In this document: positions 547 to 64,000 of the stretch, piece after piece
How the letters are laid out: the number at the start of each line of letters is the position of its first letter
Position numbering within the stretch: the stretch's first letter is position 1
From: Pseudomonas fluorescens
GTDB lineage: Bacteria > Pseudomonadota > Gammaproteobacteria > Pseudomonadales > Pseudomonadaceae
Direction of reading: 5' to 3'
Assembly: GCF_000730425.1 (NCBI RefSeq)
Contig: NZ_CP008896.1
Location: 5,704,001-5,768,000, forward strand
Length of the DNA stretch: 64,000 nucleotides
Program-made: the position numbers and the translations under genes
The notes under the pieces: model-generated
Told to the model about the DNA's origin: nothing
The model's database searches: none
Seen by the model: only the letters and a program-made list of their open reading frames with translations

Positions 547-819
547 GGTCGGGCCGTGTAGGAGCAAAGGCGCGCATCTTACCTGCATTTGCCGGTTTTC
601 AGTGGGGCCGCATAATTTTGACATGCAAAGTTCGGGCGGATTTTTGACGGTGTTTCGTACGGTTCGTCCTGCTGGCAACTTGATGTCGTTTCTTGCTTAT
701 CCGAGGTCGCAGTCAGAGCAGGTCGCCGGGGGCGGCGGGTTGATGATCAAGCGGCACCAGAGAACAACAGGTTGACGTCGCTCGGCATCCGCCGGGCGCA
801 GCACTTTCGGGGATGCACT

Positions 820-1671
820 ATGAAGATGCGACGACTCTTGGGCGCAGCTGCCACCTTGGTAGTTGCGATGGGTTCCACACTGGCCAGCGCCGACAGCAAC
901 ACCCTGAGCATCGGCTATGTGGACGGCTGGTCGGACAGTGTCGCCACCACCCATGTGGCCGCTGAAGTGATCAGGCAAAAGCTCGGTTATGACGTGAAAC
1001 TGCAGGCGGTTGCCACCGGGATCATGTGGCAGGGCGTGGCCACCGGCAAACTCGATGCGATGCTTTCGGCCTGGCTGCCGGTGACCCACGGTGAGTACTG
1101 GACCAAGAACAAAGACAAGGTGGTCGACTACGGCCCCAACTTCAAGGATGCGAAGATCGGTTTGATCGTACCGGAGTACGTCAAGGCCAAGTCTATTGAG
1201 GACTTGAAGACCGACACCACCTTCAAGAACAAGATCGTTGGCATCGATGCCGGTTCCGGCGTGATGCTCAAGACTGACGAAGCCATCAAGCAATACGGCC
1301 TGGATTACAAGCTGCAAGCCAGTTCCGGGGCGGCGATGATCGCCGAACTGACCCGTGCCGAAGACAAGCAAGACTCCATCGCAGTGACCGGCTGGGTGCC
1401 ACACTGGATGTTCGCCAAGTGGAAGCTGCGCTTCCTTGACGATCCCAAAGGCATTTATGGCGCTGCCGAGACGGTTAACAGCATCGGCAGCAAGGGCCTG
1501 GAAAAGAAGGCCCCGGAAGTCGCGGCGTTCCTGAAGAAGTTCCAGTGGGCCTCCAAGGATGAAATCGGCGAAGTGATGCTGGCCATCCAGGAAGGTGCCA
1601 AGCCTGATGTGGCGGCCAAGGATTGGGTAGCCAAGCATCCTGAGCGCGTGGCCGAGTGGACTGCTCAGTAA
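820..1671 (+). CDS. glycine betaine/choline-type ABC transporter substrate-binding protein
   Basis: This 283-residue protein starts with a Sec signal peptide (MKMRRLLGAAATLVVAMG to about residue 23, cut after ASA). The mature part (LSIGYVDGWSDSVATTHVAAEV, GIMWQGVATGKLDAMLSAWLP, VTGWVPHWMFAKWKLRFLDD) matches the OpuAC family, whose tryptophans cage quaternary amines. I chose the ATG at 820 because an in-frame upstream extension would place charged sequence before the signal peptide; ATG 826 is also possible. No permease or ATPase gene is beside it, so it resembles the orphan binding proteins of pseudomonads (CaiX/BetX type) that share a core transporter encoded elsewhere. The ligand (carnitine, betaine or choline) is not resolved. 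Confidence 0.87.
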   Translation: MKMRRLLGAAATLVVAMGSTLASADSNTLSIGYVDGWSDSVATTHVAAEVIRQKLGYDVKLQAVATGIMWQGVATGKLDAMLSAWLPVTHGEYWTKNKDKVVDYGPNFKDAKIGLIVPEYVKAKSIEDLKTDTTFKNKIVGIDAGSGVMLKTDEAIKQYGLDYKLQASSGAAMIAELTRAEDKQDSIAVTGWVPHWMFAKWKLRFLDDPKGIYGAAETVNSIGSKGLEKKAPEVAAFLKKFQWASKDEIGEVMLAIQEGAKPDVAAKDWVAKHPERVAEWTAQ

Positions 1672-1702
1672 ACAGAACCCCCTCTAAATAAGGTGTTTCA
1701 GG

Positions 1703-1740
1703 GCCGTCCGGCATTCATGCCGGGCGGCTTTTGCGCTTTT
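1703..1740 (+). terminator. Rho-independent terminator after the betaine-binding protein gene
   Basis: A GC-rich stem (1703-1714 with 1717-1728, one non-Watson-Crick pair) is followed by a broken T-run ending at 1740. It lies 31 bp past the stop codon. Confidence 0.75.
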
Positions 1741-1806
1741 GTAGGAGTCCGGCTTGCCGGCGATAGCGATCTCAAGAACGCCATCGCCGGCAAGCCGGGC
1801 TCCTAC
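1741..1806. repeat. REP-type inverted pair (REPIN-like)
   Basis: Two inverted copies of a GTAGGAG-(C)CGGCTTGCCGGCGAT core face each other with about 16 bp between them. The core recurs at several other intergenic sites in this window. Confidence 0.85.
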
Positions 1807-1885
1807 AGGGCGCAAGCCGTGATGTGGTTCTAAGACTAAGGTCGTCTGGAACCTCTCCCGTAGCCGCATACAGTGGATATGTACC

Positions 1886-1921
1886 AATAATAAAAAAGCT
1901 GTGCTGCGAGGATAAAAACAA
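1886..1921 (+). promoter_or_regulatory. candidate Hfq/Crc A-rich (AANAANAA) sites before the DUF485/actP genes
   Basis: AATAATAA at 1886-1893 and AAAAACAA at 1914-1921 both fit the AANAANAA catabolite-repression motif, and the second overlaps the A of the start codon. The ribosome site GCGAGG lies between them. In Pseudomonas such sites let Hfq with Crc block translation when preferred carbon sources are present, which would suit an acetate uptake operon. The match is by eye only. Confidence 0.4.
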
Positions 1922-2232
1922 TGAACGACAGCATTTACCTCTCGATTCAAAACAGCCCGCGCTTCAAGGAGCTGGTAAGAAAAAGGGAAAGGTTCGCCTG
2001 GATTCTCTCGGCGATCATGCTTGGGCTGTACTCCGGATTCATCCTGTTGATTGCCTATGGACCCCAGGTCCTGGGGGCCAAGATCAGTCCTGAATCGTCC
2101 ATCACCTGGGGCATCCCGCTTGGGATCGGCCTGATTGTCTCGGCCTTTGTGCTCACAGGCATCTACGTGCGACGCGCCAACGGCGAATTCGACGACCTGA
2201 ACAATGCGATTCTCAAGGAGGCTGCGCAATGA
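1921..2232 (+). CDS. DUF485 inner-membrane protein (YjcH-like), acetate symporter partner
   Basis: This 103-residue protein has two predicted membrane segments (about 26-48 and 61-83), with the [11 protein letters not shown] start and [10 protein letters not shown] end seen in the DUF485 family. Its last codons overlap the next gene by four bases (ATGA), so the two are translationally coupled. In enterobacteria and pseudomonads DUF485 genes almost always precede the cation/acetate symporter. The protein is thought to accompany that transporter, but its role is not established. Confidence 0.9.
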
Positions 2233-3887
2233 TCCGTCGTCTATTGGCTGTATTCGGCGCTTCGCTTTTTGCTCCTGCCGTTTGGGCGGCGGACGCATTG
2301 ACCGGTGAAGTGCACAAGCAACCGTTGAACGTCGCAGCTATCGTGATGTTTGTAGCGTTTGTCGGCGCTACGTTGTGCATTACCTACTGGGCATCCAAAC
2401 GTAACAACTCGGCGGCCGACTATTATGCGGCTGGCGGCAAGATCACAGGCTTCCAGAACGGCCTGGCGATTGCGGGTGACTACATGTCGGCGGCGTCCTT
2501 CCTGGGGATTTCCGCTCTGGTGTTCACCTCTGGCTACGATGGCCTGATCTACTCGATCGGCTTCCTGGTGGGCTGGCCGATCATTCTGTTCCTGATCGCC
2601 GAGCGCTTGCGCAACCTGGGTAAATACACATTTGCCGACGTGGCGTCCTATCGCCTGGGGCAAACCCAGATCCGCAGCCTGTCGGCCTGCGGTTCGCTGG
2701 TGGTGGTGGCGTTCTACCTGATCGCGCAGATGGTCGGCGCGGGCAAGCTGATCCAGTTGCTGTTCGGCCTTGATTACCATGTAGCGGTGATCCTGGTGGG
2801 TATCCTGATGTGCCTCTATGTGTTGTTCGGCGGCATGCTGGCCACCACCTGGGTGCAGATCATCAAGGCAGTGCTGCTGCTGTCCGGTGCCTCGTTCATG
2901 GCGCTGATGGTGATGAAACACGTCAACTTCGACTTCAACATGCTGTTCTCCGAGGCGATCAAGGTTCACCCTAAAGGTGAGGCGATCATGAGCCCGGGTG
3001 GTCTGGTCAAGGATCCGATCTCGGCGTTCTCCCTCGGCCTGGCCCTGATGTTCGGTACCGCTGGCCTGCCACACATCCTGATGCGCTTCTTCACCGTGAG
3101 TGACGCTAAAGAAGCCCGCAAGAGCGTGCTGTATGCCACTGGCTTTATCGGCTACTTCTATATCCTGACCTTTATCATCGGCTTCGGCGCGATTCTGCTG
3201 GTCAGCACCAACCCGGCGTTCAAGGATGCAGCGGGCGCTCTGTTGGGCGGCAACAACATGGCGGCGGTGCACCTGGCCAATGCGGTGGGTGGCAGTATTT
3301 TCCTGGGTTTCATTTCGGCCGTGGCCTTCGCCACCATCCTCGCGGTGGTTGCCGGCTTGACCCTGGCTGGCGCTTCGGCGGTATCCCATGACCTGTATGC
3401 CAGCGTGATCAAGAAAGGCAAGGCCAACGAGAAGGATGAGATTCGCGTGTCGAAGATCACCACCATCGCCCTGGCAGTGCTGGCGATTGGCTTGGGTATC
3501 CTGTTCGAAAGCCAGAACATTGCGTTCATGGTCGGCCTGGCGTTCTCCATTGCGGCGAGCTGTAACTTCCCGGTGCTGCTGCTTTCCATGTACTGGAAAA
3601 ACCTCACCACCCGTGGCGCGATGATTGGCGGCTGGCTGGGCCTGGTCAGTGCGGTTGGCCTGATGATCCTCGGCCCGACCATCTGGGTCTCGATCCTGCA
3701 CCATGAAAAAGCGATCTTCCCTTATGAGTATCCAGCGCTGTTCTCGATGATCATTGCGTTCGTCGGTATCTGGTTCTTCTCCATCACCGACAAATCGGCG
3801 GCGGCGGTGAAAGAGCGTGCGCTGTACTTCCCGCAGTTTGTGCGTTCGCAAACTGGCCTGGGGGCGAGTGGGGCGGTTAATCACTAA
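2229..3887 (+). CDS. actP: cation/acetate symporter (sodium:solute symporter family)
   Basis: The 552-residue protein is hydrophobic throughout, with an N-terminal signal-like segment ([18 protein letters not shown]) and about 13 membrane spans. Family signatures include [33 protein letters not shown] and [13 protein letters not shown]. Length and sequence fit ActP, which imports acetate and short monocarboxylates driven by sodium or protons. It is encoded directly after and overlapping the DUF485 gene and is followed by a terminator, so the two genes form one unit. The source of regulation is not visible beyond the A-rich leader sites; in Pseudomonas this operon is usually under the CrbSR system. 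Confidence 0.93.
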
Positions 3888-4131: not shown

Positions 4132-5421
4132 TTACTTGCGGTCTTCCAGCTTGGTAATGTCACGCGACTCGTAGCCGGTGTACAGCTGGCGCGGGCGGCC
4201 AATCTTGTACGGGCTGGAGAGCATTTCTTTCCAGTGGGAGATCCAGCCCACGGTCCGCGCCAGGGCGAAGATCACGGTGAACATGCTGGTTGGGATACCG
4301 ATCGCCTTGAGGATGATCCCCGAGTAGAAGTCGACGTTCGGGTACAGCGAGCGCTCGATGAAGTATGGGTCGGTCAGCGCGATCTCTTCCAGGCGCATAG
4401 CCAGTTCAAGTTGCGGATCGTTGTTGATGCCCAGTTCCTTCAACACTTCGTCGCAGGTCTGCTTCATGACGGTGGCGCGCGGGTCACGGTTCTTGTAGAC
4501 CCGGTGGCCGAAGCCCATCAGCTTGAACGGATCGTTCTTGTCCTTGGCCTTGGCGATGAACTTGTCGATGTTGGACACATCGCCGATTTCATCGAGCATG
4601 GTCAATACGGCTTCGTTCGCACCGCCGTGGGCAGGGCCCCAGAGTGCGGCGATACCGGCGGCGATACAGGCGAATGGATTGGCCCCCGAGGAGCCCGCCA
4701 GGCGCACGGTGGATGTCGAGGCGTTCTGTTCGTGGTCGGCATGGAGGATGAAGATCCGATCCATGGCCTTGGCCAGCACCGGGCTGATCGGTTTGATCTC
4801 GCACGGGGTGTTGAACATCATGTGCAGGAAGTTTTCCGCGTACGTCAGGTCGTTGCGCGGGTACATCATGGGCTGGCCCATGGAGTACTTGTAAACCATC
4901 GCCGCCAGGGTTGGCATCTTGGCAACCAGGCGGATCGCGGAGATTTCGCGATGCTGCGGGTTATTGATGTCCAGGGAGTCGTGATAGAAGGCCGACAGGG
5001 CGCCGACTACACCGCACATGACGGCCATCGGGTGGGCATCGCGACGGAAGCCGTTGAAAAAGGTCTTCAACTGCTCGTGAACCATGGTGTGGTTCTTCAC
5101 GGTGCTGACAAACTGGGCCTTTTGCGCAGGTGTTGGCAATTCGCCGTTCAGCAGCAGGTAGCAGGTTTCCAGATAGTCCGATTTCTCGGCCAGTTGTTCG
5201 ATCGGGTAGCCGCGATGTAGCAGAATGCCATTATCGCCATCGATATAGGTAATCTTCGACTCGCAAGAGGCGGTCGACATGAAGCCAGGGTCGAAAGTGA
5301 AACGGCCCGTGGCCGTCAGGCCCCGTACGTCGATAACATCGGGACCAACGGTGCCGGTTAAAATGGGCAGCTCGACGGGGGCTGCGCCCTCGATGATCAA
5401 CTGCGCTTTTTTGTCAGCCAT
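4132..5421 (-). CDS. gltA: citrate synthase (type II, hexameric class)
   Basis: This 429-residue protein condenses acetyl-CoA and oxaloacetate to citrate, the entry step of the TCA cycle. Visible signatures are the catalytic histidine motif [11 protein letters not shown], the [10 protein letters not shown] segment and [15 protein letters not shown]. Length and the N-terminal beta domain (about residues 1-60) are those of the NADH-sensitive Gram-negative type. An AGGAGG ribosome site precedes the ATG. It faces away from sdhC across a 364-bp shared promoter region, an arrangement conserved in pseudomonads. Confidence 0.97.
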
Positions 5422-5479
5422 GTGGCCTCCTATTTATGCTTCAAATCATCAGACAGACCCCCCACGCAGGGCCCGCACC

Positions 5480-5507
5480 ACTATATTGATATAAATCCAG
5501 ATGTCAA
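5480..5507 (-). promoter_or_regulatory. sigma-70-type promoter for gltA
   Basis: Reading leftward, TTGACA (5507-5502), a 16-base spacer and TATAGT (5485-5480) make a near-consensus promoter, giving a leader of about 50 bases before gltA. Confidence 0.7.
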
Positions 5508-5621
5508 TTTGCCTAAAGTCTTGCCCCAGAAGGCTTTAACCGTACTTTTTCCTCGAAATTACCTGCCGTTTACGCCTTTTATCCCGTCAGCGCAATCAGC
5601 TATTAGGGTGAGGAGCGCGCG

Positions 5622-5650
5622 TTGTCATTAGTAGCCTAACTGTCTATACT
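5622..5650 (+). promoter_or_regulatory. sigma-70-type promoter for the sdh-suc genes
   Basis: TTGTCA (5622-5627), exactly 17 bases, then TATACT (5645-5650). The predicted start near 5657 leaves a leader of about 130 bases before sdhC. The 114 bp between this and the gltA promoter hold nothing else I recognise. An A-run just before the sdhC start (5776-5782) might be an Hfq contact, which is speculative. Confidence 0.7.
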
Positions 5651-5785
5651 CGGCCACCGACCGCCAAGGGCTTTTGGGCTTGCTTTCATTGGGGGTCGCA
5701 CTCCCTGGGTGGTGCTTACCTGACCAGTGCACTCCCCAACAACTTTGCCCTGATTGTTAGGGGCTCTTCAGTGTGAAAAAAAGCC

Positions 5786-6160
5786 GTGAATAGCCAACGA
5801 CCTGTAAACCTAGACCTAAGGACCATCAAACTCCCCATCACCGGCGTTACGTCGTTCCTGCACCGTGTTTCCGGCATCATCCTGTTCCTGGGCTTGGGCA
5901 TCATGCTTTATGCATTGAGCAAATCCCTGGGTTCCGAGGAAGGATACGCCGAGGTGAAGGCATGCTTGACCAGCCCGCTGGCCAAGTTCGTAGCATGGGG
6001 CCTCCTGTCCGCTCTGCTGTATCACCTGGTAGCCGGTGTGCGCCACTTGATCATGGACATGGGCATCGGTGAGACGCTGGAAGGCGGCCGCCTGGGCTCG
6101 AAAATCATCATCGCCATTTCCGTGGTGCTGATCGTTCTGGCAGGAGTTTGGATATGGTAA
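5786..6160 (+). CDS. sdhC: succinate dehydrogenase cytochrome b556 subunit
   Basis: This 124-residue membrane subunit of complex II has three membrane spans. It carries the SdhC signature RPVNLDLRTIKLPITG with SFLHRVSG near the N-terminus and a haem-ligand region LYHLVAGVRHLIMD. The start is a GTG because the frame is closed by TGA four codons upstream, and no strong ribosome site is visible. The end overlaps sdhD. With SdhD it anchors SdhAB and binds haem b and ubiquinone. Confidence 0.95.
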   Translation: MNSQRPVNLDLRTIKLPITGVTSFLHRVSGIILFLGLGIMLYALSKSLGSEEGYAEVKACLTSPLAKFVAWGLLSALLYHLVAGVRHLIMDMGIGETLEGGRLGSKIIIAISVVLIVLAGVWIW

Positions 6161-6522
6161 CCAGCGTTACGAACCTTTCGCGTTCGGGCCTCTATGACTG
6201 GATGGCACAGCGTGTGTCTGCGGTCGTTCTCGCGGCTTATTTCATTTTCCTGATCGGGTACCTCGTTGCAAACCCTGGCATTGGCTACGCCCAATGGCAC
6301 GGTCTGTTCTCCCACAACGGGATGCGTATCTTCAGTCTGCTCGCCCTTGTGGCCCTGGGCGCTCACGCCTGGGTCGGCATGTGGACCATCGCGACCGACT
6401 ACCTGACGCCAATGGCGCTGGGCAAGTCCGCGACTGCAGTACGTTTCCTTTTCCAGGCAGTATGCGGCGTCGCGATGTTCGCTTACTTCGTCTGGGGTGT
6501 GCAGATTCTCTGGGGTATCTGA
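6154..6522 (+). CDS. sdhD: succinate dehydrogenase hydrophobic membrane anchor
   Basis: The 122-residue anchor has three membrane spans and the SdhD pattern SGLYDWMAQRVSAVVLA with a conserved LGAHAWVGMWTIATDYL helix. ATG 6154 is chosen over an in-frame TTG at 6148 because CAGGAG at 6141-6146 is spaced seven bases from it. The gene overlaps the end of sdhC by seven bases and sdhA follows three bases after its stop, so the subunits are made together. Confidence 0.95.
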   Translation: MVTSVTNLSRSGLYDWMAQRVSAVVLAAYFIFLIGYLVANPGIGYAQWHGLFSHNGMRIFSLLALVALGAHAWVGMWTIATDYLTPMALGKSATAVRFLFQAVCGVAMFAYFVWGVQILWGI

Positions 6523-52928: not shown

Positions 52929-53004
52929 GTCCCCTTCGTCTAGTGGCCTAGGACACCGCCCTTTCACGGCGGTAACAGGGGTTCGAGTCCCCTAGGGGAC
53001 GCCA
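52929..53004 (+). tRNA. tRNA-Glu (TTC), copy 1
   Basis: 76 bases. GTCCCCT/AGGGGAC acceptor stem, anticodon loop CTTTCAC (TTC), GGTTCGAGTCC T-arm and encoded CCA. Confidence 0.98.
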
Positions 53005-53006
53005 TT

Positions 53007-53082
<76 letters not shown>

Positions 53083-53186
53083 TTTTTAAACAGTGTGGCT
53101 TTCGGGCGGCACTGAGTGAAACCAGGACCAAGTCTTCGGATAAGGGTCTGGGCACTGGAATACACACCATGTGTTTCAGTTAGCGT

Positions 53187-53262
53187 GTCCCCTTCGTCTA
53201 GTGGCCTAGGACACCGCCCTTTCACGGCGGTAACAGGGGTTCGAGTCCCCTAGGGGACGCCA
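53187..53262 (+). tRNA. tRNA-Glu (TTC), copy 2
   Basis: Identical to copy 1, after a 104-bp spacer with no feature I recognise. Confidence 0.98.
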
Positions 53263-53265
53263 TTT

Positions 53266-53341
<76 letters not shown>

Positions 53342-53617: not shown

Positions 53618-54232
53618 ATGAAAAATGTTAGCGAATTGATCGAAAGCCGAATTTCAGCTAATGCGTTCGATGCCAGTCGTGCGCTTTCGGATGAGCAAAT
53701 CGAAAAGCTGGTTCGTCTAGCCACGTTGGCACCTTCATCATTCAATGCGCAAAACTGGAAAGTAATTGCCGTGCGCACGCCGGAGGCCAAGCAGCGCCTG
53801 AAAAAAGTTGCTTATGACCAGCCAAAAATCGCCGATGCCTCTGTCACTTTTATCATTTGCGGGACGTTGGCCCCCCATGAAGGCTTGCCAGAAGCCCTGC
53901 TGCCATCTCTTGAGAAAGGCATTATCGAACGCACGGTCTTCGATACCTGGGTTGCAATGGCCAATGGCATGTACGAAGGCAATGAAGTGTTCCAGCGAGA
54001 TGAGGCCATTCGCTCGGCATCACTGTGTGCAATGACCTTGATGCTGGCTGCACAGGGGCAAGGATTGGCTTCGGGCCCGATGATTGGCTTTGATTCGGCC
54101 GGGGTTTCCCGTGAATTCCAACTGACCTCTTCTGAGGTGCCTGTGATGTTGGTGGCTGTCGGATATGCGCTGGCGCAAAACTGGCCACAAAAACCGCGCA
54201 AGGCACTCAAGCAGGTGCTGACGCTCGTTTAA
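53618..54232 (+). CDS. nitroreductase-family flavoprotein
   Basis: The 204-residue FMN protein has the nitroreductase text LATLAPSSFNAQNWKVIAV near the N-terminus and GLASGPMIGFD late. Members reduce nitroaromatics, quinones or enones with NAD(P)H. The open frame extends far upstream, but ATG 53618 (GGGAAG upstream) begins the fold. Its stop overlaps by three bases the stop of the convergent LysR gene. Confidence 0.88.
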   Translation: MKNVSELIESRISANAFDASRALSDEQIEKLVRLATLAPSSFNAQNWKVIAVRTPEAKQRLKKVAYDQPKIADASVTFIICGTLAPHEGLPEALLPSLEKGIIERTVFDTWVAMANGMYEGNEVFQRDEAIRSASLCAMTLMLAAQGQGLASGPMIGFDSAGVSREFQLTSSEVPVMLVAVGYALAQNWPQKPRKALKQVLTLV

Positions 54233-55170
54233 CAGCTGATACGCTCACGGGTTGTTGACTCCGCCTGTGGGCGTGTGACAAGTGATACGAGGGCCGAAGG
54301 GCGCCAATGCTGCAAATACTCCTGACAGAAGTCCAGATAGACGCGCACCAGACGAGAAGGATGGCGGTGTGATTGATAGAGCAAATGCACGGGGGTCTCC
54401 GGCATTGGGTAGTTGTCCAGCACTGCCCGCAGGCGGCCTTCTTCAATGGCCTGGACTGCCAGAAAGGGAGGGAGCTCGGTAATGCAGTCGCCATTCAGTG
54501 CGCAGTTGCGCAGGTGCAGGTAGTTATTTGTCGTAACGATGGCAGTAGGTTCGAGGGTCTGGTTACCCAGGGTCCACAGGCTGCGCGTATTGGAATCCTT
54601 TGACCAGGTTGCACAGGGGAACCTGAGCAGGTCGTCCGGTGTATGAGGCTCACCCAGTCGCTCAAGCAGCGTCGGGCTGGCAACGAGCTTATGTCGGAAG
54701 TTAATCATGTGGCGTGCGATCAAAGTGTCTTGTTCGATGGCGCCGACGCGAAGCGCGACATCAATACCTTCGGCAATAAGGTCCGTGCGCTGCTCTGTAA
54801 AGTAAACCGCAAGTTCTATTTGCGGATAACGCCGTTGAAAGTCGCACAGCAATTGCCCCCAGGGCTCGAATGCGACCGGAAGTGCCACTCTCAAGCGGCC
54901 CCTGAGTGCATCCTGGTCACTGATCAAGGCCGACTTTCCTTGTGCGAAGGCTTCTATGCCGCGGCTCGCATACTCATAGAGCTTTTCTCCGGCCAGGGTC
55001 AACTTGGTGCCTCGCATGGAGCGATGCAATAGCTGCACATTCAACTCATGTTCCAGCTCGCGAATACGCCGACTCAAGGTTTGCAGTGGAATGTCCATAT
55101 GGAGGGCGGCAGCTGACAGGCTTCCCATCTGGGAGACAGCCACGAACATTTGTATCGCGTTGAGATCCAT
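54229..55170 (-). CDS. LysR-family regulator (paralog 1)
   Basis: The 313-residue regulator has an N-terminal winged helix (MDLNAIQMFVAVSQMGSLSAAALHMDIPLQTLSRRIRELE) and a LysR effector domain (about 90-300; GRLRVALPVAFEPWGQLL). AGAGGTGA precedes ATG 55170. It clearly resembles two other LysR genes in this window (55295 and 63004) but is the most diverged of the three. The target is unknown; the nitroreductase gene convergent to it is less likely than the cluster at 56-63 kb. Confidence 0.9.
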   Translation of the reverse strand: MDLNAIQMFVAVSQMGSLSAAALHMDIPLQTLSRRIRELEHELNVQLLHRSMRGTKLTLAGEKLYEYASRGIEAFAQGKSALISDQDALRGRLRVALPVAFEPWGQLLCDFQRRYPQIELAVYFTEQRTDLIAEGIDVALRVGAIEQDTLIARHMINFRHKLVASPTLLERLGEPHTPDDLLRFPCATWSKDSNTRSLWTLGNQTLEPTAIVTTNNYLHLRNCALNGDCITELPPFLAVQAIEEGRLRAVLDNYPMPETPVHLLYQSHRHPSRLVRVYLDFCQEYLQHWRPSALVSLVTRPQAESTTRERISC

Positions 55171-55294
55171 CGTCACCTCTTTTGTAGTTATCTGAGGTCT
55201 TGACCATGGCAGTGGGTGATCGTTGCATGGTGCTGGCTGAAAAACATCAACACTTTCAGGCTTTCCACTGTGCCCTGGCTTGGGAAACAAGTGG

Positions 55295-56161
55295 CTACAT
55301 AAGGCGTTTTATATGCTGTTGGGCAAAGTCCAGATAAGTTCGCACAAGACTGGACGGGTGCCGGTGCGACGGGTAGAGCAGGTTGATCTCCATTTCCGGG
55401 AGTGGATGTTTCTCCAGGAGCGTGACCAATTGATTGTTCCCTATCGCCTCTAGGGCCATGAACGGCGGCAGCTCGGTGACCAGGTCCCCGGCCAATGCCC
55501 GGGTGCGTAAATGAGCGTAATCGTTGGTCGCTATTATGGGGTCGGGTTTGAAGGTCTCCTCGCCCAGATGCCACGTGGTGGAAGCCTCCTGGCTCCAGAC
55601 TCCACAGGGATAGTTGCGTAAGTGCGCGACTTTGTTCGGTACACCTAAACGTGCCAGCAGGGTGGGAGATGCGACCAGAAGGTGGCGGTAGGTCAGCATG
55701 CGTCTAGCCACCATTGAATCGTGAGTAATAGGTCCGATCCGCATGACGACATCAATGCCATCCTCGATCAAGTCAATACGCCTGTCGCTCGTATAGACCT
55801 GTAGCTGTATGTCCGGATAGTGCCGCTGAAACGCCGACAGCACCTCCCACCACGGTTCGAATGAAGGGGGGAGCGAAAGCCGTAAACGCCCTCTGAGCTG
55901 CGTCTGGTCGCTGATCAGGGCGCGCTCGCCATCGACCAGCATTTCAAGTCCTCGGCTGGCATGTTCATACAGGCGTGTACCTGCGTCAGTGAGGCGCGTG
56001 CCGTGTACCGAGCGTTCCAGCAGTTGCACTTGCAGCACGCGCTCCAGTTCTCTGATTCGCCGGCTGAGTGTCGCGAGCGGAATTTCCAGGCGCTCGGCGG
56101 CGGCCGTGAAACTGCCACATTTGGCAGTGGCGACAAACATCCGTATGGCATTAAGGTCCAT
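55295..56161 (-). CDS. LysR-family regulator (paralog 2)
   Basis: The 288-residue regulator starts MDLNAIRMFVATAKCGSFTA and carries SRRIRELERVLQVQLLERS and GRLRLSLPPSFEPWWEVLS. It is strongly similar to paralog 3 at 63004, including YPDIQLQV, PCGVWSQ, TNDYAHL and ELPPFMALE. It is transcribed in the same direction as paralog 1 and the NTF2-like gene upstream, away from the decarboxylase operon. Confidence 0.92.
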   Translation of the reverse strand: MDLNAIRMFVATAKCGSFTAAAERLEIPLATLSRRIRELERVLQVQLLERSVHGTRLTDAGTRLYEHASRGLEMLVDGERALISDQTQLRGRLRLSLPPSFEPWWEVLSAFQRHYPDIQLQVYTSDRRIDLIEDGIDVVMRIGPITHDSMVARRMLTYRHLLVASPTLLARLGVPNKVAHLRNYPCGVWSQEASTTWHLGEETFKPDPIIATNDYAHLRTRALAGDLVTELPPFMALEAIGNNQLVTLLEKHPLPEMEINLLYPSHRHPSSLVRTYLDFAQQHIKRLM

Positions 56162-56325: not shown

Positions 56326-56856
56326 TCAACCTTCGCCCTGTACGGGATCAGTGTTGAATGTATACAAGACAATCTTCCAGCCCTGGCTGGTTTTATTGAG
56401 GATGAACACTTCGCGGTTCAGGTCAATGACGGGCTTGTCGTTCTCCATCACGGTTGCTCCTTTGTGGTGATGTGTGCGGATGACCGCGGCATCGCCATAC
56501 AGATTAATTGCGTCGTAGGCGAACACTGTTTTGAATTTGGCTATTTTAAATAATGCATCATAGCCTTCGGTCTTTTGCTGGACGGTCGTGTAAGTACGCT
56601 TGTTATTCCACTCTGCAACGCTATCGGCCGCAAACAGACTAACTATTTTCTTGGTATTACCTTCGTTGAGTGCCTGTTCATATTGGCGCACGACGTTATA
56701 GGCTTCTTGTTGCACGCTCTTTATTTTGGGATCGCTGGAGAAGGGCGGCGCACCATTGTCTTCTGCTGCTGTCGCACTGGCGGCAGCAAAGAGGCTAAGG
56801 ACGCCGGTCATGGCCAGTGTAAGGAGCGGTGTACGAATCAGGCTTGTTGTTTTCAT
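56326..56856 (-). CDS. exported NTF2-like (SnoaL/DUF4440) protein 1
   Basis: The 176-residue product has a signal peptide (to about residue 33, LAMTGVLSLFAAASATA) and a mature NTF2-like fold (YEQALNEGNTKKIVSLFAADSVAEW, YDAINLYGDAAVIRTHHH, GWKIVLYTFN). AGAGGG is five bases before ATG 56856. NTF2-like proteins include isomerases, cyclases and binding proteins. It faces away from the decarboxylase operon, and that operon holds a second exported NTF2-like gene. The coding sequence is visibly AT-richer than the rest of the window. Confidence 0.85.
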   Translation of the reverse strand: MKTTSLIRTPLLTLAMTGVLSLFAAASATAAEDNGAPPFSSDPKIKSVQQEAYNVVRQYEQALNEGNTKKIVSLFAADSVAEWNNKRTYTTVQQKTEGYDALFKIAKFKTVFAYDAINLYGDAAVIRTHHHKGATVMENDKPVIDLNREVFILNKTSQGWKIVLYTFNTDPVQGEG

Positions 56857-57145
56857 GTTTCCCTCTGTTTGTCTCTCGTGCGATCTATGTCGTGAAAAAG
56901 TAATGTACGCCTTTGACCTGTTGCGCACGGGCCTGCTCAATACACTACTTGTTGCCGGCGACAGTCAGGATTTGCTGTGTCGCTGGTTGCGGTATCCTGC
57001 CTTACTTCTATCTTTTGATGAACTGTCAGGAATGATAGGGAGCCATCTATAAATGAGAGGCTGTTGTTTTCATGATGCCGAGGGTTTTCGGTATTAAGGT
57101 TGTTCGTCACGTTGAGGTTGTGTCGTCGTCATAACCTCCCATAGG

Positions 57146-57162: not shown

Positions 57163-57311
57163 TTTTGAGGGGTTAACACTGGTTGTTGATTGCTGGATAT
57201 TGATTTCAACGCTGTTAGGCAAGCCACTATTAGCGTCGCCGATGTTCTAGGGGCGATAGAGGGTTGTTCTGCGCCGTGAGTACATGCGGTTTCTCATACA
57301 GGGGTGAAGTG

Positions 57312-58304
57312 ATGAACGGTAAAATAGTTCTAGAAGAACATGTAAGTTCCGAACTGAATAACAGTGTGTGGGATTCAGCGGGAGAGACGGCGAGAAACGG
57401 TAAGGCTTATATGGACGACGTTGAGTGGCGCTTGCTCGACAGCGATCGTCGAGTAGAAGAGATGGAGCAGAACGGCATAGATATTTCCATCATTTCTCTG
57501 ACGTCTCCCGGCGCCCAGGGCATTCTCGATACTAAAAAAGCCGTCGACTTTGCCCGACAGACCAATGACTACATTCGCGAACGCTTTGTGGATAAACATC
57601 CTTCGCGTTTAAAAGCGTTTGCCACTGTTGCGCTTCAGTCACCTGCTGACGCTGCGGACGAACTAGAGCGGGCAGTCAATGACTTGGGATTTGTCGGGGC
57701 ATTGATCAACGGCTACACCAATATTGGGAATGCCGACAGCGCCCAGTACTTGGATGAGTCGCCGGTCTGGGAGTTCTGGGAGCGTGTCGCGGCATTGAAT
57801 GTTCCTGTCTACCTGCACCCGCGAGAGCCATTGCCCAGCCAACGCCGCATTTATGATGGTTATCCGTCTCTCGTTGGTTCAGCCTGGGGGTTTGCCCATG
57901 AAACGGCTACCCATGCGATTCGCTTGATGCTCAGTGGGCTTTTCGATAAGTACCCTAATCTCACTATTATTCTGGGGCATTTGGGGGAAGGTTTACCGCT
58001 GATGCTGCCACGGTTGCAGCATCGCTTGAACATGCAGCGTGAAGGCGTGGGACTTGGCAGTGCCAAACAGACAGTCGGGCATTACTTGTCTAACAATTTT
58101 TATTTGACCACCGCCGGGCACTTTCACACCAAAGGCTTGTTGGACTCTATCAGTGAAGTGGGCGTAGACCGGATGCTGTTTTCCGCAGATTACCCCTATG
58201 AAAGCATGAAGACTGCCAGCACTTGGTTTGATAATGCGCTGATCAGCGATAACGACCGGATCAAGATCGGTCGTGAGAATGCGCTCAGATTGTTTGCGCT
58301 GTAA
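57312..58304 (+). CDS. gamma-resorcylate-decarboxylase-like amidohydrolase
   Basis: The 330-residue protein is close in length and motif order to 2,6-dihydroxybenzoate decarboxylase and 6-methylsalicylate/orsellinate-type decarboxylases. Metal and catalytic residues line up: Glu8 and His10 (KIVLEEH), DSAG (21-24), His169 (YLHPREPLP), His223 (LGHLGEGLP) and Asp293 (FSADYPYE). It should be a cytosolic metal-dependent non-oxidative decarboxylase of a phenolic acid, possibly reversible. GGGTGAAG lies before ATG 57312. First gene of a five-gene operon. Confidence 0.85.
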   Translation: MNGKIVLEEHVSSELNNSVWDSAGETARNGKAYMDDVEWRLLDSDRRVEEMEQNGIDISIISLTSPGAQGILDTKKAVDFARQTNDYIRERFVDKHPSRLKAFATVALQSPADAADELERAVNDLGFVGALINGYTNIGNADSAQYLDESPVWEFWERVAALNVPVYLHPREPLPSQRRIYDGYPSLVGSAWGFAHETATHAIRLMLSGLFDKYPNLTIILGHLGEGLPLMLPRLQHRLNMQREGVGLGSAKQTVGHYLSNNFYLTTAGHFHTKGLLDSISEVGVDRMLFSADYPYESMKTASTWFDNALISDNDRIKIGRENALRLFAL

Positions 58305-58364
58305 GAAATCATAAGTTTTGATACAGGCAGGGATACATCTCGGCCTGGCGGCGGAGGTGTTTTC

Positions 58365-58886
58365 GTGTTGAACGTATTAGCTTTTAAAAACATTCGTTTC
58401 TGGGTATTAGTGATTGGACTGGGGGGCGGCCTGGTGCCGCTGGCCAATGCGGATTCGCCCAGTGGTGACGGCCGTGCGGAAATAAATGGTGCACAACACT
58501 CGATCACGTTGCTGATCAATCAGTTTGTTGACGGCTGGAACAGGCATGACGCGAAAAAACTCAGTGAGCTTTTTGCCGAAGATGGCGACTTTATCGGTAT
58601 TACGGGAAGTAAATGGGATAACCCGCAGAAGATCTATCAAGTACACAGTGAGTTATTCAAAGGGCGCTATGACAAAAGTGTCTATGCCGTCAGCGGCGTG
58701 CCGGAAATAAATCTTGTCAGCACGAATGTTGCAATTGTGCACTGGCGCTGGAGCATAAAAGATGTTCGAGATACCAAGGGGCAAGTGATGCCGCCCTATG
58801 AGGGGATATTTACTTGGGTCTTGGTAAAAAACAATTCCGGTTGGAAAGTACGCTCGGCGCAAAATAATACGATTACCCAGTCCTAA
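58365..58886 (+). CDS. exported NTF2-like (SgcJ/EcaC-type) protein 2
   Basis: The 173-residue protein starts at GTG with GGAGG seven bases upstream. It has a membrane-type signal (about 12-29) and a mature NTF2-like fold (QFVDGWNRHDAKKLSELFAEDGDFIGITG, VAIVHWRWSI). It is only weakly similar to the NTF2-like protein at 56326. It sits 60 bp after the decarboxylase gene and 21 bp before the GMC gene. Function unknown; a binding or isomerase role on the pathway compound is possible. Confidence 0.85.
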   Translation: MLNVLAFKNIRFWVLVIGLGGGLVPLANADSPSGDGRAEINGAQHSITLLINQFVDGWNRHDAKKLSELFAEDGDFIGITGSKWDNPQKIYQVHSELFKGRYDKSVYAVSGVPEINLVSTNVAIVHWRWSIKDVRDTKGQVMPPYEGIFTWVLVKNNSGWKVRSAQNNTITQS

Positions 58887-58907
58887 TAACAGCACGGGAG
58901 AACTAAC

Positions 58908-60419
58908 ATGAGCACTACTCTTGGCACGCCAAATGTAATTATCGTTGGCGGTGGTTCGGCGGGTGCAGTACTTGCCCGTCGGTTGAGTGAAAACAGTCAG
59001 CGCCAGGTCGTCCTGCTGGAAGCCGGGCATAGCTACGCCCCTGGCCGCTATCCCGAGATCATCGCCAAAAGCGATATCGTCGGTGCCAACGGCAACCCTG
59101 AATTCGAGTGGGGTTACAAGACTCAGCCCGGCTACATCGACCATCCTATTGGTGCAGTGCGCGGCAAGGTGCTGGGTGGCAGTTCGGGAGTCAACGGCGC
59201 CGTGGCGCTTCGTGCCCGCGAGGCTGATTTCCAGCGCTGGAACCTGCCAGGCTGGAGCTTCGAGCAAATGCTGCCCTGGTTCAAAAAGCTGGAAACACAC
59301 AGCGGCGGTGAGAGTGCCTTGCATGGTCATGACGGGCCGCTACCTGTGCATCAACTCAAGCGCTCAGATGTCAGCCCCATGCAACGCGCTTTTATTGACG
59401 CGACAGTGGCCAATGGCTTCAACGTTATCGATGACTTTGACGGGCCGCAGGCCGACGGGGTCGGCGCCTACTCGATGAACGTGGTCGACGGCGTGCGCGT
59501 CAATACGGGCATGGCCTATCTGACTGATCAGGTTCGCGCGCGCCGCAATCTGCATATCCGTCCGGACAGCCTGGTGGATAAGGTTTTGTTCACTGGCAAG
59601 CAGGCCACGGGGGTGCAACTGGCCAACGGCGAAAAACTGTTGGCCGATGAAGTTATCCTGTGTGCCGGTACCTACGGCAGCGCCGCGATCCTGTTGCGCT
59701 CAGGCATCGGTCCGGCAACTGATCTGCAGAACCTGCAGATTCCGTTGGTGGCGGATCTACCGGTGGGCCAGCATCTGGTGGATCACCCGTTCTACTACAA
59801 TGCGTATGCCGCCAAGCCCGATCAGATCGGCGGCCAATCCCCGGCGATAGGCGCCAAGCTCTGGACTGGCAGCAGCACGGCCCGTGCCGGTGAGCTGGAT
59901 TTGCATATCACCGCTACCCATCTGTTCCCGCATGACTCAAGCCCGACCAAGGTCGGTTTTGTACTTGCTGTGGCGCTCACTCGTCCTCTGTCCACCGGCA
60001 AGGTGACGCTGGCCAGCCGCGACCCCTCGGTCGCCCCGAACATCGACCTCAACTTTCTTGCCCAGGAACACGACCGCCAGCGCCTGCTGGAAGGGATTCG
60101 CCTGTCACGCAAGATCGGCGCGACTGCGCCACTCAACCGTCTCGTGCATTCAGAACTCAATCCGGGTGCAGGTGCCGATTCCGATGAGGCGCTGCTGGCC
60201 AGTGTCCGCGCGAGTCTCGATACCTATCATCACCCCACCTCCACTGCACCCATGGGGCGCGAAGGCGATCCGCAAGCTGTCGTCGATCTGCAAGGCCGGG
60301 TCCTGGGCCTGCAAGGCCTGCGGGTGGTGGATGCGTCGATTTTCCCTGATGTGCCCTCTGTCGCGATCAATATCACAGTGATTGCCACTGCCGAAAAAAT
60401 CGCCCACCACTACCGCTGA
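58908..60419 (+). CDS. GMC-family FAD alcohol oxidase/dehydrogenase
   Basis: The 503-residue flavoprotein has the FAD motif VIIVGGGSAGAVLARRLSE (about 10-28), the GMC signature GKVLGGSSGVNGAVA (about 87-101), and the catalytic His442 (YHHPTSTAPMG) with Asn488 (SVAINITV) typical of alcohol-oxidising members. No signal peptide. It probably oxidises a benzylic or other primary alcohol to the aldehyde. With oxygen as acceptor this would give peroxide, which fits the catalase gene two genes on. Base use is GC-rich, unlike the two genes before it. Confidence 0.92.
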   Translation: MSTTLGTPNVIIVGGGSAGAVLARRLSENSQRQVVLLEAGHSYAPGRYPEIIAKSDIVGANGNPEFEWGYKTQPGYIDHPIGAVRGKVLGGSSGVNGAVALRAREADFQRWNLPGWSFEQMLPWFKKLETHSGGESALHGHDGPLPVHQLKRSDVSPMQRAFIDATVANGFNVIDDFDGPQADGVGAYSMNVVDGVRVNTGMAYLTDQVRARRNLHIRPDSLVDKVLFTGKQATGVQLANGEKLLADEVILCAGTYGSAAILLRSGIGPATDLQNLQIPLVADLPVGQHLVDHPFYYNAYAAKPDQIGGQSPAIGAKLWTGSSTARAGELDLHITATHLFPHDSSPTKVGFVLAVALTRPLSTGKVTLASRDPSVAPNIDLNFLAQEHDRQRLLEGIRLSRKIGATAPLNRLVHSELNPGAGADSDEALLASVRASLDTYHHPTSTAPMGREGDPQAVVDLQGRVLGLQGLRVVDASIFPDVPSVAINITVIATAEKIAHHYR

Positions 60420-60432
60420 GTGAGTTCACAAA

Positions 60433-61887
60433 ATGAGTCCAACCACTGCGTTGAACTGGATTGATGGTCAATGGCTTGATTCCGGTGATTACAAAGAATC
60501 CTTCGATCCAGCCACCTCCACTGTCATTGGCCGCTATGCCAATGGCGGGTTGGATGAAGCACAGAAAGGCATTGAAGCGGCGCGCCGGGCGTTTGTTCAA
60601 ACCCCCTGGAAAGACGACCGTCACCTGCGTGCCCAGGTCCTGTTAGAGCTGGCGGACGCGTTTGAGCGTAACGCGCAAGCGTTGATCGAAATCCTGGCGC
60701 TGGAGAATGGCAAGATCAAGCCAGAAGCGCAGTTTGAAGTGAGCATGGTGCCTTCCAAGTTGCGTTACTACGCAGCGCTCGCCAGGGCCGAATACGGGCG
60801 GGCTGGTGAGCCCAGGCCGGGCAAGATTTCCCTGGTTATCCGCCAGGCTGTGGGGGTGGCGGGCATCATCGCCCCGTGGAATTCACCGGTGGTGCTGATG
60901 ATCCGTTCGCTGGCACCGGCCCTGGCGGCAGGCTGCACGGTGGTGATCAAAATGCCTGGGCAGACCGCCCAGACCAACACACTGGTTTCGCAGATCATGT
61001 CGCAAGCGGTCTCGCTGCCCCAAGGCGTCATCAACCTGTTCAGTGAGCTTGGACCACAAGGGTCCAAGCATCTGGTGGAGTCGCCCGACGTACCGGTGAT
61101 CAGCTTTACGGGCAGCACCGGTACCGGTCGGAGTATTTCGGCCGTCGGCGCACAGCACCTCAAGCGCTTTGGCCTGGAGCTGGGTGGGAAGACACCTATG
61201 GTGGTTTTTGCCGATGCTGACCTCGATGCGGCCGTGCCGACATTGGAAAAGGCCCTGACGGTTTTCGCAGGACAGTTCTGCATGACCGGTTCGCGCCTGC
61301 TGGTACAACGCGAGATTGCGCCGGTCTTGATCGAGCGTCTGGCGGCGCGGCTCAAGGCGGTCCGGGTCGGCCCGGCAGCAGACCCAGCCAGTGAAATGGG
61401 ACCCCTGATCGACAAGGCCAATGTACAGCGCGTGAACCAGGCGGTCGAAGAGGCCATTGCTGGCGGGGCGCAGGTCATTGTGCGCGGTGGCCCGATCACG
61501 ACGGGAACGTTGGCCCAGGGGGCGTTTTACCGCCCGACGCTGCTGCAAGTGAACAATGCGGATATGCCCATCGTGCAACATGAAACCTTTGGTCCGGTGC
61601 TGACTGTGCAAATCTTCGACACTGAAGCCCAGGCTCTCGAACTGGCCAACAACAGCGAATACGGTCTGGCCGCGAGCATCTGGACCCGGGATATCGACCG
61701 CTCCCTGCGGGTGGCGCGCGAGCTTGAGGCCGGGACGGTATGGGTCAATGATTGGGCGGTGGTGTACGACGAGTTCGAAGAGGGAGGATTCAAACAATCG
61801 GGCCAAGGGCGTCTCAACGGGATGGCGGCCATGGACGACTTTGTCGAATACAAACACATTGCGCTCAACCCCGGTCCACGCCAGTGA
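60433..61887 (+). CDS. aldehyde dehydrogenase
   Basis: The 484-residue enzyme has Asn150 (PWNSP), Glu249 (LELGGKTP) and the nucleophile Cys283 (GQFCMTGSR). The usual coenzyme motif K-P-x-E is replaced by KMPGQT (173-178); the lost Glu, which normally binds the NAD ribose, suggests NADP use. It starts 13 bp after the GMC gene and likely oxidises the aldehyde that enzyme makes. Confidence 0.95.
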   Translation: MSPTTALNWIDGQWLDSGDYKESFDPATSTVIGRYANGGLDEAQKGIEAARRAFVQTPWKDDRHLRAQVLLELADAFERNAQALIEILALENGKIKPEAQFEVSMVPSKLRYYAALARAEYGRAGEPRPGKISLVIRQAVGVAGIIAPWNSPVVLMIRSLAPALAAGCTVVIKMPGQTAQTNTLVSQIMSQAVSLPQGVINLFSELGPQGSKHLVESPDVPVISFTGSTGTGRSISAVGAQHLKRFGLELGGKTPMVVFADADLDAAVPTLEKALTVFAGQFCMTGSRLLVQREIAPVLIERLAARLKAVRVGPAADPASEMGPLIDKANVQRVNQAVEEAIAGGAQVIVRGGPITTGTLAQGAFYRPTLLQVNNADMPIVQHETFGPVLTVQIFDTEAQALELANNSEYGLAASIWTRDIDRSLRVARELEAGTVWVNDWAVVYDEFEEGGFKQSGQGRLNGMAAMDDFVEYKHIALNPGPRQ

Positions 61888-61905
61888 CTGTGCGGGGATA
61901 GGGGC

Positions 61906-62961
61906 ATGGGAGGCTTGAGACCACTGGCCGCGGTGCTGCTGGGCGCGATGATTGCCGCCTCTGCGCCAGTGGTTGCAGGCCAGGATAAGTGGCAGGTCCA
62001 AAGGAGCGTGCCGATGTCACAGAGTCAGTTGTATGACGCCTTGCTTGACGCTCTCTACGCTACGTTTGGCAACCACCCCGGGTTTCGGATAGCACATGCC
62101 AGGGGCGTTTTGGTCAACGGTACATTTGTTGCGTCAAAAGCTGCACAAGGCCTGAGCCGGGCGGCTCACTTGCAGGGGAATATAGTACCCATCCTGGTGC
62201 GGTTCTCGAACTTCAGTGGTGTGCCGTCAACCCGTGACGGGGATCCCGATGCGAGTCCCCATGGCATGGCCATTCGGTTTGAACTGCCGGGGGGGCTGTC
62301 CACGGATATTGTCGCGCACTCTTACGATGGCTTCCCCGTGGCTACCCCTGAAGCCTTTCTGGTGTTTCTGCAGGGCATTGCTGCCAGTGTCGCCACGCCT
62401 GCCAACCCGGCACCGCTTCAGGCGTTCCTGGCGGATCATCCCAGAGCGCAGGCCTTTCTGGAGGCTGCCAAACCGGCACCACGCAGCTACAGTTCGAGCG
62501 AGTATTTTGGGGTCAATAGCCTGGTGTTTGTCGACGCGCAAGGGGGGCGTCATGTTGGCCGTTATCGCATCGAGCCCCAACTGAAGGAACCGCCGCTCGG
62601 CAGTGCGCAATTGGCCGCGATGCCTGACGATTATCTGCAACGGGCAATGGCTGGGCGCTTGGCTGTGGGGCCGGTGAATCTGCGTCTGATGCTACAACTG
62701 GCCGAGCCCGGTGATGCGATTGGCGATGGTTCCATCCCCTGGCCGCGCCAAGGGGCGCAGGCCCACGCTGAAGTCGAGCTGGGCATATTGACGTTGCGCG
62801 CCCTGGTCCCGTCATCCCAGCAAGCGACAGCCCAACAAACCGTGGCCTTTGATCCGGGAGGCCTGGTCGATGGAATAGAAACCAGCACCGACCCGATGAT
62901 TGCCGCGCGTCATGAGATCTATCGACGAGCTGCTTTGCGTCGGCGTCAGCCCGGGTCTTGA
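61906..62961 (+). CDS. exported catalase-like haem protein (SrpA type)
   Basis: The 351-residue protein has a signal peptide (to about residue 25, VLLGAMIAASAPVVAG). It is the short catalase-related type: catalytic His64 (IAHARGVLVNG), RFSNFSG, HGMAIRF, and the haem tyrosine Tyr339 in RHEIYRR. It should remove peroxide or act as a peroxidase in the periplasm. Last gene of the operon, converging on the LysR gene at 63004. Confidence 0.9.
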   Translation: MGGLRPLAAVLLGAMIAASAPVVAGQDKWQVQRSVPMSQSQLYDALLDALYATFGNHPGFRIAHARGVLVNGTFVASKAAQGLSRAAHLQGNIVPILVRFSNFSGVPSTRDGDPDASPHGMAIRFELPGGLSTDIVAHSYDGFPVATPEAFLVFLQGIAASVATPANPAPLQAFLADHPRAQAFLEAAKPAPRSYSSSEYFGVNSLVFVDAQGGRHVGRYRIEPQLKEPPLGSAQLAAMPDDYLQRAMAGRLAVGPVNLRLMLQLAEPGDAIGDGSIPWPRQGAQAHAEVELGILTLRALVPSSQQATAQQTVAFDPGGLVDGIETSTDPMIAARHEIYRRAALRRRQPGS

Positions 62962-63003: not shown

Positions 63004-63906
63004 TTATGCGTGAGTCAGCAACGTTGACTGGGTATTGAGCTGGGCGGGGTGTTTTATGTGCTGCCGGGCAAAATCCAGAAAAGCCTGCACGATGGGGGAG
63101 GTCGTCGGGTGTGAAGGGTAATGCAGGGTGATCTCCAGTTCTGGGAGTGGGTGTTCCTTCAGCAAGGCGACCAACTGATTGTTTTTGATGTGCTCCATTG
63201 CCATGAACGGGGGCAGTTCGGTCAGCACGCCACCTGCCAGGGCGCGGCTGCATAAATGGGCGTAGTCGTTGGTGAGTATTGTCGGGTCAGGTTTGAATAC
63301 TTCCTTTCCCAGGCGCCAACTGGCTGTCGAACCTTGGCTCCAGACGCCACAAGGGAACTTGTGCAGGTCGGTGATCTCGGCAGGCTCGCCCAGACGCTGG
63401 AGCAATGCGGGGGCTGCCACCAGCACGTGGTGGTAGGTGAACACCCGTTGATTGGCCAGGGAGTGCTGAGTACACCGGCCTATGCGAATGATCACATCAA
63501 CGCCATCTTCGGCCAGGCGGTCGGACCTGTCGCTAGCCTGGACCTGCAGCATAATGTCTGGATAACGCTGCTGGAACCTTGAGAGCACTTCCCACCAGGG
63601 CTTGAGCGAAGACGGCAGTGAAAGCCGCAGGAGTCCCTTGAGCCTGGCTTGCTCGTTTTGCAAGGCGCGTTCACCACGGGTCAGTATGTCCAGGCCCCGG
63701 CTGGCGTGCTGGTACAAGCGCATGCCGGCGTCGGTGAGGTAGGTACCGTGCACCGAACGTTGCAGCAGTTGTACGTTGAGCTCCCGCTCCAGGTCCCGGA
63801 CCCGGCGGCTGATGGTAGCAAGCGGGATACCCAGGTGTTCGGCAGCAGCAGTCATGCTGCCCGATTGCGCGATGGCCGCGAACATCCGTAGAGCATTCAG
63901 ATCCAT
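63004..63906 (-). CDS. LysR-family regulator (paralog 3)
   Basis: The 300-residue regulator starts at ATG 63906 (MDLNALRMFAAIAQSGSMTA) and is strongly similar to paralog 2 across the helix-turn-helix and effector domain, with shared upstream bases (TAGAAGT before each start). It lies at the far end of the operon. Its tail (PAQLNTQSTLLTHA) is about a dozen residues longer than that of paralog 2. The 94 bp after it to the window edge hold no gene. Confidence 0.92.
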   Translation of the reverse strand: MDLNALRMFAAIAQSGSMTAAAEHLGIPLATISRRVRDLERELNVQLLQRSVHGTYLTDAGMRLYQHASRGLDILTRGERALQNEQARLKGLLRLSLPSSLKPWWEVLSRFQQRYPDIMLQVQASDRSDRLAEDGVDVIIRIGRCTQHSLANQRVFTYHHVLVAAPALLQRLGEPAEITDLHKFPCGVWSQGSTASWRLGKEVFKPDPTILTNDYAHLCSRALAGGVLTELPPFMAMEHIKNNQLVALLKEHPLPELEITLHYPSHPTTSPIVQAFLDFARQHIKHPAQLNTQSTLLTHA

Positions 63907-64000
63907 GTTGCAACTTCTATGGTTTTTGAGCCATAGGCGCAAAGACTCAGTGGGGTTGTCAGGGCGATGGCATCTGCCAGGCCCTCGAGCAGTAACCGCT

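Follow-up and report, generated by a model that had tools for sequence, protein, structure and literature searches.

Organization of the operon

A stretch of 64,000 nucleotides of the Pseudomonas fluorescens genome (hereafter the window; contig NZ_CP008896.1 of assembly GCF_000730425.1, positions 5,704,001 to 5,768,000, from a genome of one 6.06 Mb contig) contains five open reading frames (ORFs), A-B-C-D-E, on the plus strand between positions 57312 and 62961. The intergenic gaps are 60, 21, 13 and 18 bp, and these coordinates confirm the five-gene operon proposed in a preliminary description of this DNA. ORF A (57312..58304) encodes a metal-dependent decarboxylase-like protein of 330 amino acids from the Amidohydro_2 family, carrying the residues E25, L239 and Y296; the ORF as listed begins at 57264, and the ATG at 57312 is preceded by a Shine-Dalgarno-like stretch. 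ORF B (58365..58886), with a GTG start, encodes an NTF2/SnoaL-like protein (Pfam DUF4440/SnoaL) of the SgcJ/EcaC subfamily TIGR02246. ORF C (58908..60419) encodes a GMC flavoprotein of 503 amino acids with no export signal in this strain, ORF D (60433..61887) an aldehyde dehydrogenase of 484 amino acids (Pfam Aldedh), and ORF E (61906..62961) a catalase-like haem protein (Pfam Catalase) whose closest solved relative is 3e4w. Signal-peptide-like (Sec-like) N-termini were recognized by eye in both B and E.

The operon is composed of two fused modules. GC content is 0.515 for A and 0.479 for B, versus 0.606-0.613 for C to E, which agrees with A-B having arisen separately. The five-gene set is hardly a product of chance, because the five genes recur in P. 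brenneri and P. gessardii and the association of A, C and D recurs in distant bacteria. All the enzyme families concerned are already known. No description of their combination into this five-gene set, or of the clade to which A belongs, was found among the matches listed from the open-access literature, which is weak evidence of absence.

A putative decarboxylase with an altered pocket

Protein A scored 134.9 bits against Amidohydro_2 (PF04909; gathering score 26.4), and its best solved relatives are gamma-resorcylate decarboxylases, the overall fold of which it retains. Active-site positions were compared solely through the alignment. The metal-site residues, which we take to be E8, H10 and H164 in gamma-resorcylate decarboxylase, are kept in A. 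So are the carboxylate residues, given as H218, R229 and D287 in the available excerpts of PMC6305744. By contrast, the three residues named in the same excerpts as ring and hydroxyl contacts are all replaced (F23 by E25, N234 by L239 and F290 by Y296), and Y184 stands at the position of H179. These differences set A apart from gamma-resorcylate (2,6-dihydroxybenzoate) decarboxylases such as 2dvt, 3s4t/4qro and TsdA. The three replacements are near-universal among the best 120 of 1803 relatives of A: with the addition of a Pantoea protein taken in by name, position 23 is Glu in 119 of the 121 rows, the others being one Thr (the Pantoea protein) and one gap. A is 31% identical to the 5-carboxyvanillate decarboxylase LigW, in which Met256 corresponds to a Leu in A.

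Since the residues contacting gamma-resorcylate are replaced, the substrate of A is probably a different compound. The genes beside annotated tsdA, encoding a flavin-dependent hydroxylase pair, an intradiol dioxygenase and a maleylacetate reductase, were not recognized around A. A gamma-resorcylate pathway was rejected on these residues and on the context, compared with one annotated tsdA locus, and 2,6-dihydroxybenzoate thus loses the place of leading substrate given to it previously. In Klebsiella pneumoniae (record L053, 9001-9999), a 59% identical relative of A with the same Glu/Leu/Tyr signature stands by itself next to a LysR gene.

The oxidizing pair C and D

Protein C scored above the cut-offs of both GMC Pfam domains and contains the HHPTSTAPMG motif and a C-terminal Asn; we take the His of this motif and the Asn to be the GMC catalytic motifs. 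It remained below the NCBIfam cut-offs for PRK02106 (389.8 versus 605 bits), betA (337.1 versus 732.1 bits) and TIGR03970 (353.1 versus 387.45 bits), and its assignment as a choline dehydrogenase or as the mycofactocin protein MftG was rejected on these scores. Among solved proteins, it is closest to one named as a choline dehydrogenase and to others of the pyridoxine 4-oxidase type; patulin synthase (8bxl) is remote, in the 20th row, with 165.8 bits. Protein D scored above the Aldedh Pfam cut-off and contains the LELGGK (Glu) and GQFC (Cys) motifs, but fell under the cut-off of at least 25 named aldehyde dehydrogenase models, including BADH, SSADH, HpaE and StyD, among the best 25 of 43 NCBIfam rows.

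In the three species with the five genes, C starts immediately before its FAD-binding motif; in two of these species, translation could also begin six codons further upstream. A signal resembling those of the twin-arginine translocation (Tat) system, as defined by a rule of our own, was found in 94 of 120 relatives of C (best 120 of 2304). Among the 26 that failed this rule, the FAD motif lay no more than 25 residues from the start in 14 but not in the other 12, some of the latter (three Serratia-like rows and three from Burkholderia) resembling near misses or late starts. As the presence of the signal varies across these relatives, its absence from C in the window is not unique.

The putatively exported proteins E and B

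E retains the distal His and the RxxxY motif. Together with the metal and carboxylate residues of A and the motifs of C and D, this bears out the earlier statement that the catalytic residues are present. The best solved match of E is 3e4w (163.7 bits), which we take to be MAP_2744c. The score against the NCBIfam equivalog for HPII was 33.7 bits, far under the cut-off of 1102, and a true catalase of this type was therefore rejected; by its sequence, E is classed as a catalase-like haem protein of the 3e4w kind. It differs from 3e4w in an additional signal-like N-terminal extension and in lying in an operon with GMC and aldehyde dehydrogenase genes. A signal-like N-terminus is also present in several relatives of E and is not clear in those of loci L043, L056 and L086. 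B scored above the TIGR02246 cut-off (57.1 versus 33.95 bits). Two points of the preliminary description need correction: A does not keep three substrate contacts of its best solved relatives, and the closest solved relative of E is not a true catalase. The peroxide removal formerly ascribed to E is doubtful: E appears to be exported and C in the window lacks an export signal, so E probably does not simply scavenge peroxide produced by C in the strain studied. Both proteins could share a compartment in those relatives whose C has a Tat signal.

Distribution of the operon and its modules

The A proteins of the nearest named relatives, P. brenneri and P. gessardii, are 93-94% identical to that of the window. 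The same five-gene order, for which a search in other genomes had been suggested, is complete in P. brenneri (L007); in P. gessardii, it is split over two contigs, with A-B-C truncated where one contig stops (L008, L045) and the remainder of C, followed by D and E, on a second one (L046). Few genomes of the genus sample have A: it was found at E≤1e-60 in 5 of 398, in two of which the identity is only 43%. In the genomes with these 43% relatives (G207 and G330), the relatives of C do not exceed 41% identity and D was not found at E≤1e-100. A relative of C was found at E≤1e-80 in 9 of 249 Pseudomonas genomes, including that of the window, a rough yardstick given that A-bearing genomes span several phyla. 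A phylum-wide search yielded 7 of 349 at E≤1e-90; apart from the window itself, the six others were 47-51% identical. For the family of G594, a search that contained no positive control yielded 0 of 341 at E≤1e-110.

A, C and D lie together, though variously arranged, in Pseudomonas, Burkholderia, Chryseobacterium and Rhodococcus, contrary to the earlier remark that no bacterial counterpart was known. Among 12 relatives of A with at least 59% identity (L007-L018), C lies in the locus in eight cases, D in eight and either of them in nine, bearing in mind that the L008 contig ends inside C and that a 36% identical GMC fragment in L016 was not counted; C is present in the genomes of 10 of the 12. 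A, C and D occur together, with E not found beside them, in L009, L011, L012 (Burkholderia singularis, order C-D-A), L013, L014 and L018 (D-A-C). The order C-A-D is continued by a P450 gene in the two Chryseobacterium species (L013, 12536-13645; L014, 12511-13653). A D-A pair, with no C in the stretch read, was found in L017 and in the plasmid record L052; the other plasmid stretches read contained C-D-E (L056) or A or C without the trio. The records of L056 and L057 carried no annotation, and their genes were mapped here. In Segniliparus rugosus (L016, 9286-9798), a GMC-like ORF of 170 amino acids, 36% identical, directly precedes A and is possibly a decayed C. The distance matrices of A, C and D correlate over eight loci, as would be expected for co-inheritance.

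The C-D-E set was also found with no A in the stretch read: in L037 (G057), L038 (G098), L040 (G045), L041 (G048), L043 (G177), L056 (B. stagnalis), L085 (Pseudomonas sp. 5P_3.1_Bac2) and L086 (Nocardia, with an E only 32% identical). For L085 and L086, A lies elsewhere in the genome, at L010 and L017, respectively; the genomes of these two A loci contain a separate C-D pair. An old yellow enzyme gene is located between D and E in L037 and L085 (identified with Pfam) and in L040 (by eye). The LysR-C-D-E cluster is adjoined in two loci by another GMC gene (L037, 10720-12411; L041, 11421-12980), whose identity to C is about 50%. The C-D-E genes of G177 (L043), with a C of only 50% identity, have in their vicinity a polyketide-synthase-type ORF with KS, KR, carrier and thioesterase domains (15-3725) and a gene for an MFS transporter (4990-6228). 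A relative of C with 46-47% identity is located near a nonribosomal peptide synthetase (NRPS) gene on a Serratia plasmid.

A proposed route and its alternatives

The interpretation that we favor, with confidence and doubt about evenly balanced, is that the operon directs the LysR-controlled removal of a one-carbon group from a ring, proceeding from alcohol to aldehyde to acid and ending with the loss of CO2. From a primary alcohol (ring-CH2OH), C would form the aldehyde, which D would convert to the acid; A would take CO2 off this acid, which should bear a metal-binding hydroxyl or carbonyl group ortho to the carboxylate. In Chryseobacterium, the P450 beside the trio could form the alcohol from a methyl group. 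E, as a haem peroxidase-like protein, and the NTF2-like B would act outside the cytoplasm or be accessory. We infer the order of the steps from family chemistry, and likewise infer the aromatic or heteroaromatic nature of the substrate, LysR control and the cell compartment. The recurrence of the A-C-D association makes a joint C-D-A pathway likely. The conversion of alcohol to aldehyde to acid with decarboxylation, as given in the preliminary description, is what the families of C, D and A most naturally suggest. A bolder proposal, which we put forward tentatively as possible but short of probable, is that A represents an uncharacterized clade of ortho-acid decarboxylases with a new recognition set (E25, R28 and N29 with L239/Y296), and that with C and D it may form a mobile bacterial "oxidize, then decarboxylate" cassette stripping hydroxymethyl or methyl groups from rings in Pseudomonadota, Bacteroidota and Actinomycetota.

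The route from thymine to uracil, in which a methyl group is oxidized stepwise by enzymes of another type than C and D, resembles the proposed route in its logic. According to the excerpts of PMC6305744, iso-orotate decarboxylase, from the same superfamily as A, ends the thymidine salvage pathway; it is a distant relative (22-23% identical to A). Decarboxylases of the fold of A have, in the same excerpts, also been studied as carboxylation catalysts, which would give a naturally occurring clade with another pocket practical interest. If correct, the proposal would tie a particular set of genes and an active-site signature to an unnamed route by which carbon is removed from rings in at least three phyla, and would add a decarboxylase clade of changed specificity.

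Several observations weigh against this interpretation. A Tat-like signal is present on many relatives of C, while A and D appear to be cytosolic, and intermediates would therefore need to cross the membrane in those relatives. L015 and L016 have A in genomes without C at E≤1e-60 and without D at E≤1e-100. Conversely, A was found in none of eight C-bearing genomes or records at E≤1e-30, including G057, G098, G045, G048, G177 and, for L056, the plasmid record, in a search with no internal control; the same query matches the window genome (G000) and G142 in a separate genus search. Host ancestry may partly explain the correlated distances, the difference in GC content between A-B and C-E may indicate that the fusion is recent and loose, and the genes near the C relatives of G177 and the Serratia plasmid might point to a link between the wider C family and natural-product chemistry.

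The occurrence of C-D-E in at least five Pseudomonas genomes in which A was not found implies that the chemistry of C and D does not need A. The operon might accordingly combine two independent functions under one promoter, C-D-E being a LysR-controlled system for the detoxification of reactive alcohols, aldehydes or electrophiles to which A, acting on another phenolic acid, has been added. The old yellow enzyme genes between D and E, the nitroreductase, quinone-reductase-like, old yellow enzyme and NTF2-like genes around the operon of the window, and the lower GC content of A and B are all in keeping with such an arrangement; nonetheless, we consider it rather unlikely. Without a shared pathway, the repeated association of A with C and D, in different arrangements and phyla, would be hard to explain. 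It is less probable still that A is a plain gamma-resorcylate or dihydroxybenzoate decarboxylase in an operon feeding ordinary phenol catabolism, for example from gentisyl alcohol to hydroquinone. Such a function would agree with the best solved relatives of A and with a cluster of the hydroquinone-cleavage type at about 1.63 Mb in the same genome (L072, 8063-13328), which comprises genes for a PnpD_N protein, an aldehyde dehydrogenase, an iron-containing alcohol dehydrogenase taken for maleylacetate reductase, an intradiol dioxygenase and a Rieske protein. PnpD_N was taken for the large subunit of hydroquinone dioxygenase, and a single PF04444 dioxygenase was found in this genome at E≤0.001. 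The cluster implied that hydroquinone could be the product of A, but this lead was dropped: PnpD_N is present in two of the three five-gene genomes (G000 and G142, not G361) and in one of eight other A-bearing genomes, and it also occurs in G177 and G207, which lack an A of this clade, and in 19 of 249 genomes of the genus sample; for L052, it was not found in the plasmid record, which was the part searched. PnpD_N is therefore not a fixed partner of A, and the hydroquinone or hydroxyquinol link does not hold as a general one; the replaced contacts, with their almost invariant Glu, and the unrecognized tsdA-type neighbors also argue against a plain decarboxylase.

The fungal patulin cluster reportedly contains the decarboxylase PatG and the GMC enzyme PatE. 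A biosynthetic set like those for patulin or terreic acid, or a function of A as a carboxylase, appears very improbable. The patulin cluster and the operon do both combine an amidohydrolase decarboxylase and a GMC enzyme, patulin synthase is a remote match to C, and the polyketide-synthase-type ORF and transporter gene of G177 and the NRPS gene of the Serratia plasmid point in the same direction, but C is closer to other GMC enzymes than to patulin synthase. No polyketide synthase was recognized by eye in the window from 30 to 64 kb, in about 17 kb beyond it or in the A-C-D loci. The patulin parallel drawn previously is weakened accordingly. As for carboxylation, decarboxylation is the favored direction in cells.

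Promoter-like site, candidate regulators and neighboring genes

A promoter-like site (TTAACA-17-GATATT; 57173..57201, plus strand) lies upstream of A, and both hexamers are kept in P. brenneri and P. gessardii. Three such sites were found versus a mean of 4.0 in shuffled sequence, with no enrichment here; as their frequency does not exceed that of the shuffles, conservation is the sole argument for this one. A second NTF2-like protein, with Pfam scores slightly below the curated cut-offs, is encoded divergently from the operon (56326..56940, minus strand) and also adjoins it in P. brenneri and P. gessardii. Pfam and locus comparison identified three LysR regulator genes on the minus strand: that at 55295..56161 is the candidate regulator of the operon, and those at 54229..55290 and, downstream and convergent, at 63004..63942 would also have regulatory roles. 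The operon is flanked by a nitroreductase-family gene (53639-54229), and a nitroreductase-family gene with 60% identity is located near the C-D-A cluster of Burkholderia singularis (L012, 31-645). On the 3' side of the window are genes for an old yellow enzyme, a TetR-like protein (recognized by eye), NTF2-like proteins and a quinone-reductase-like protein. Two tandem tRNA-Glu/tRNA-Gly pairs (52929-53341) bound, on the left, the region of lower GC content in which the operon lies.

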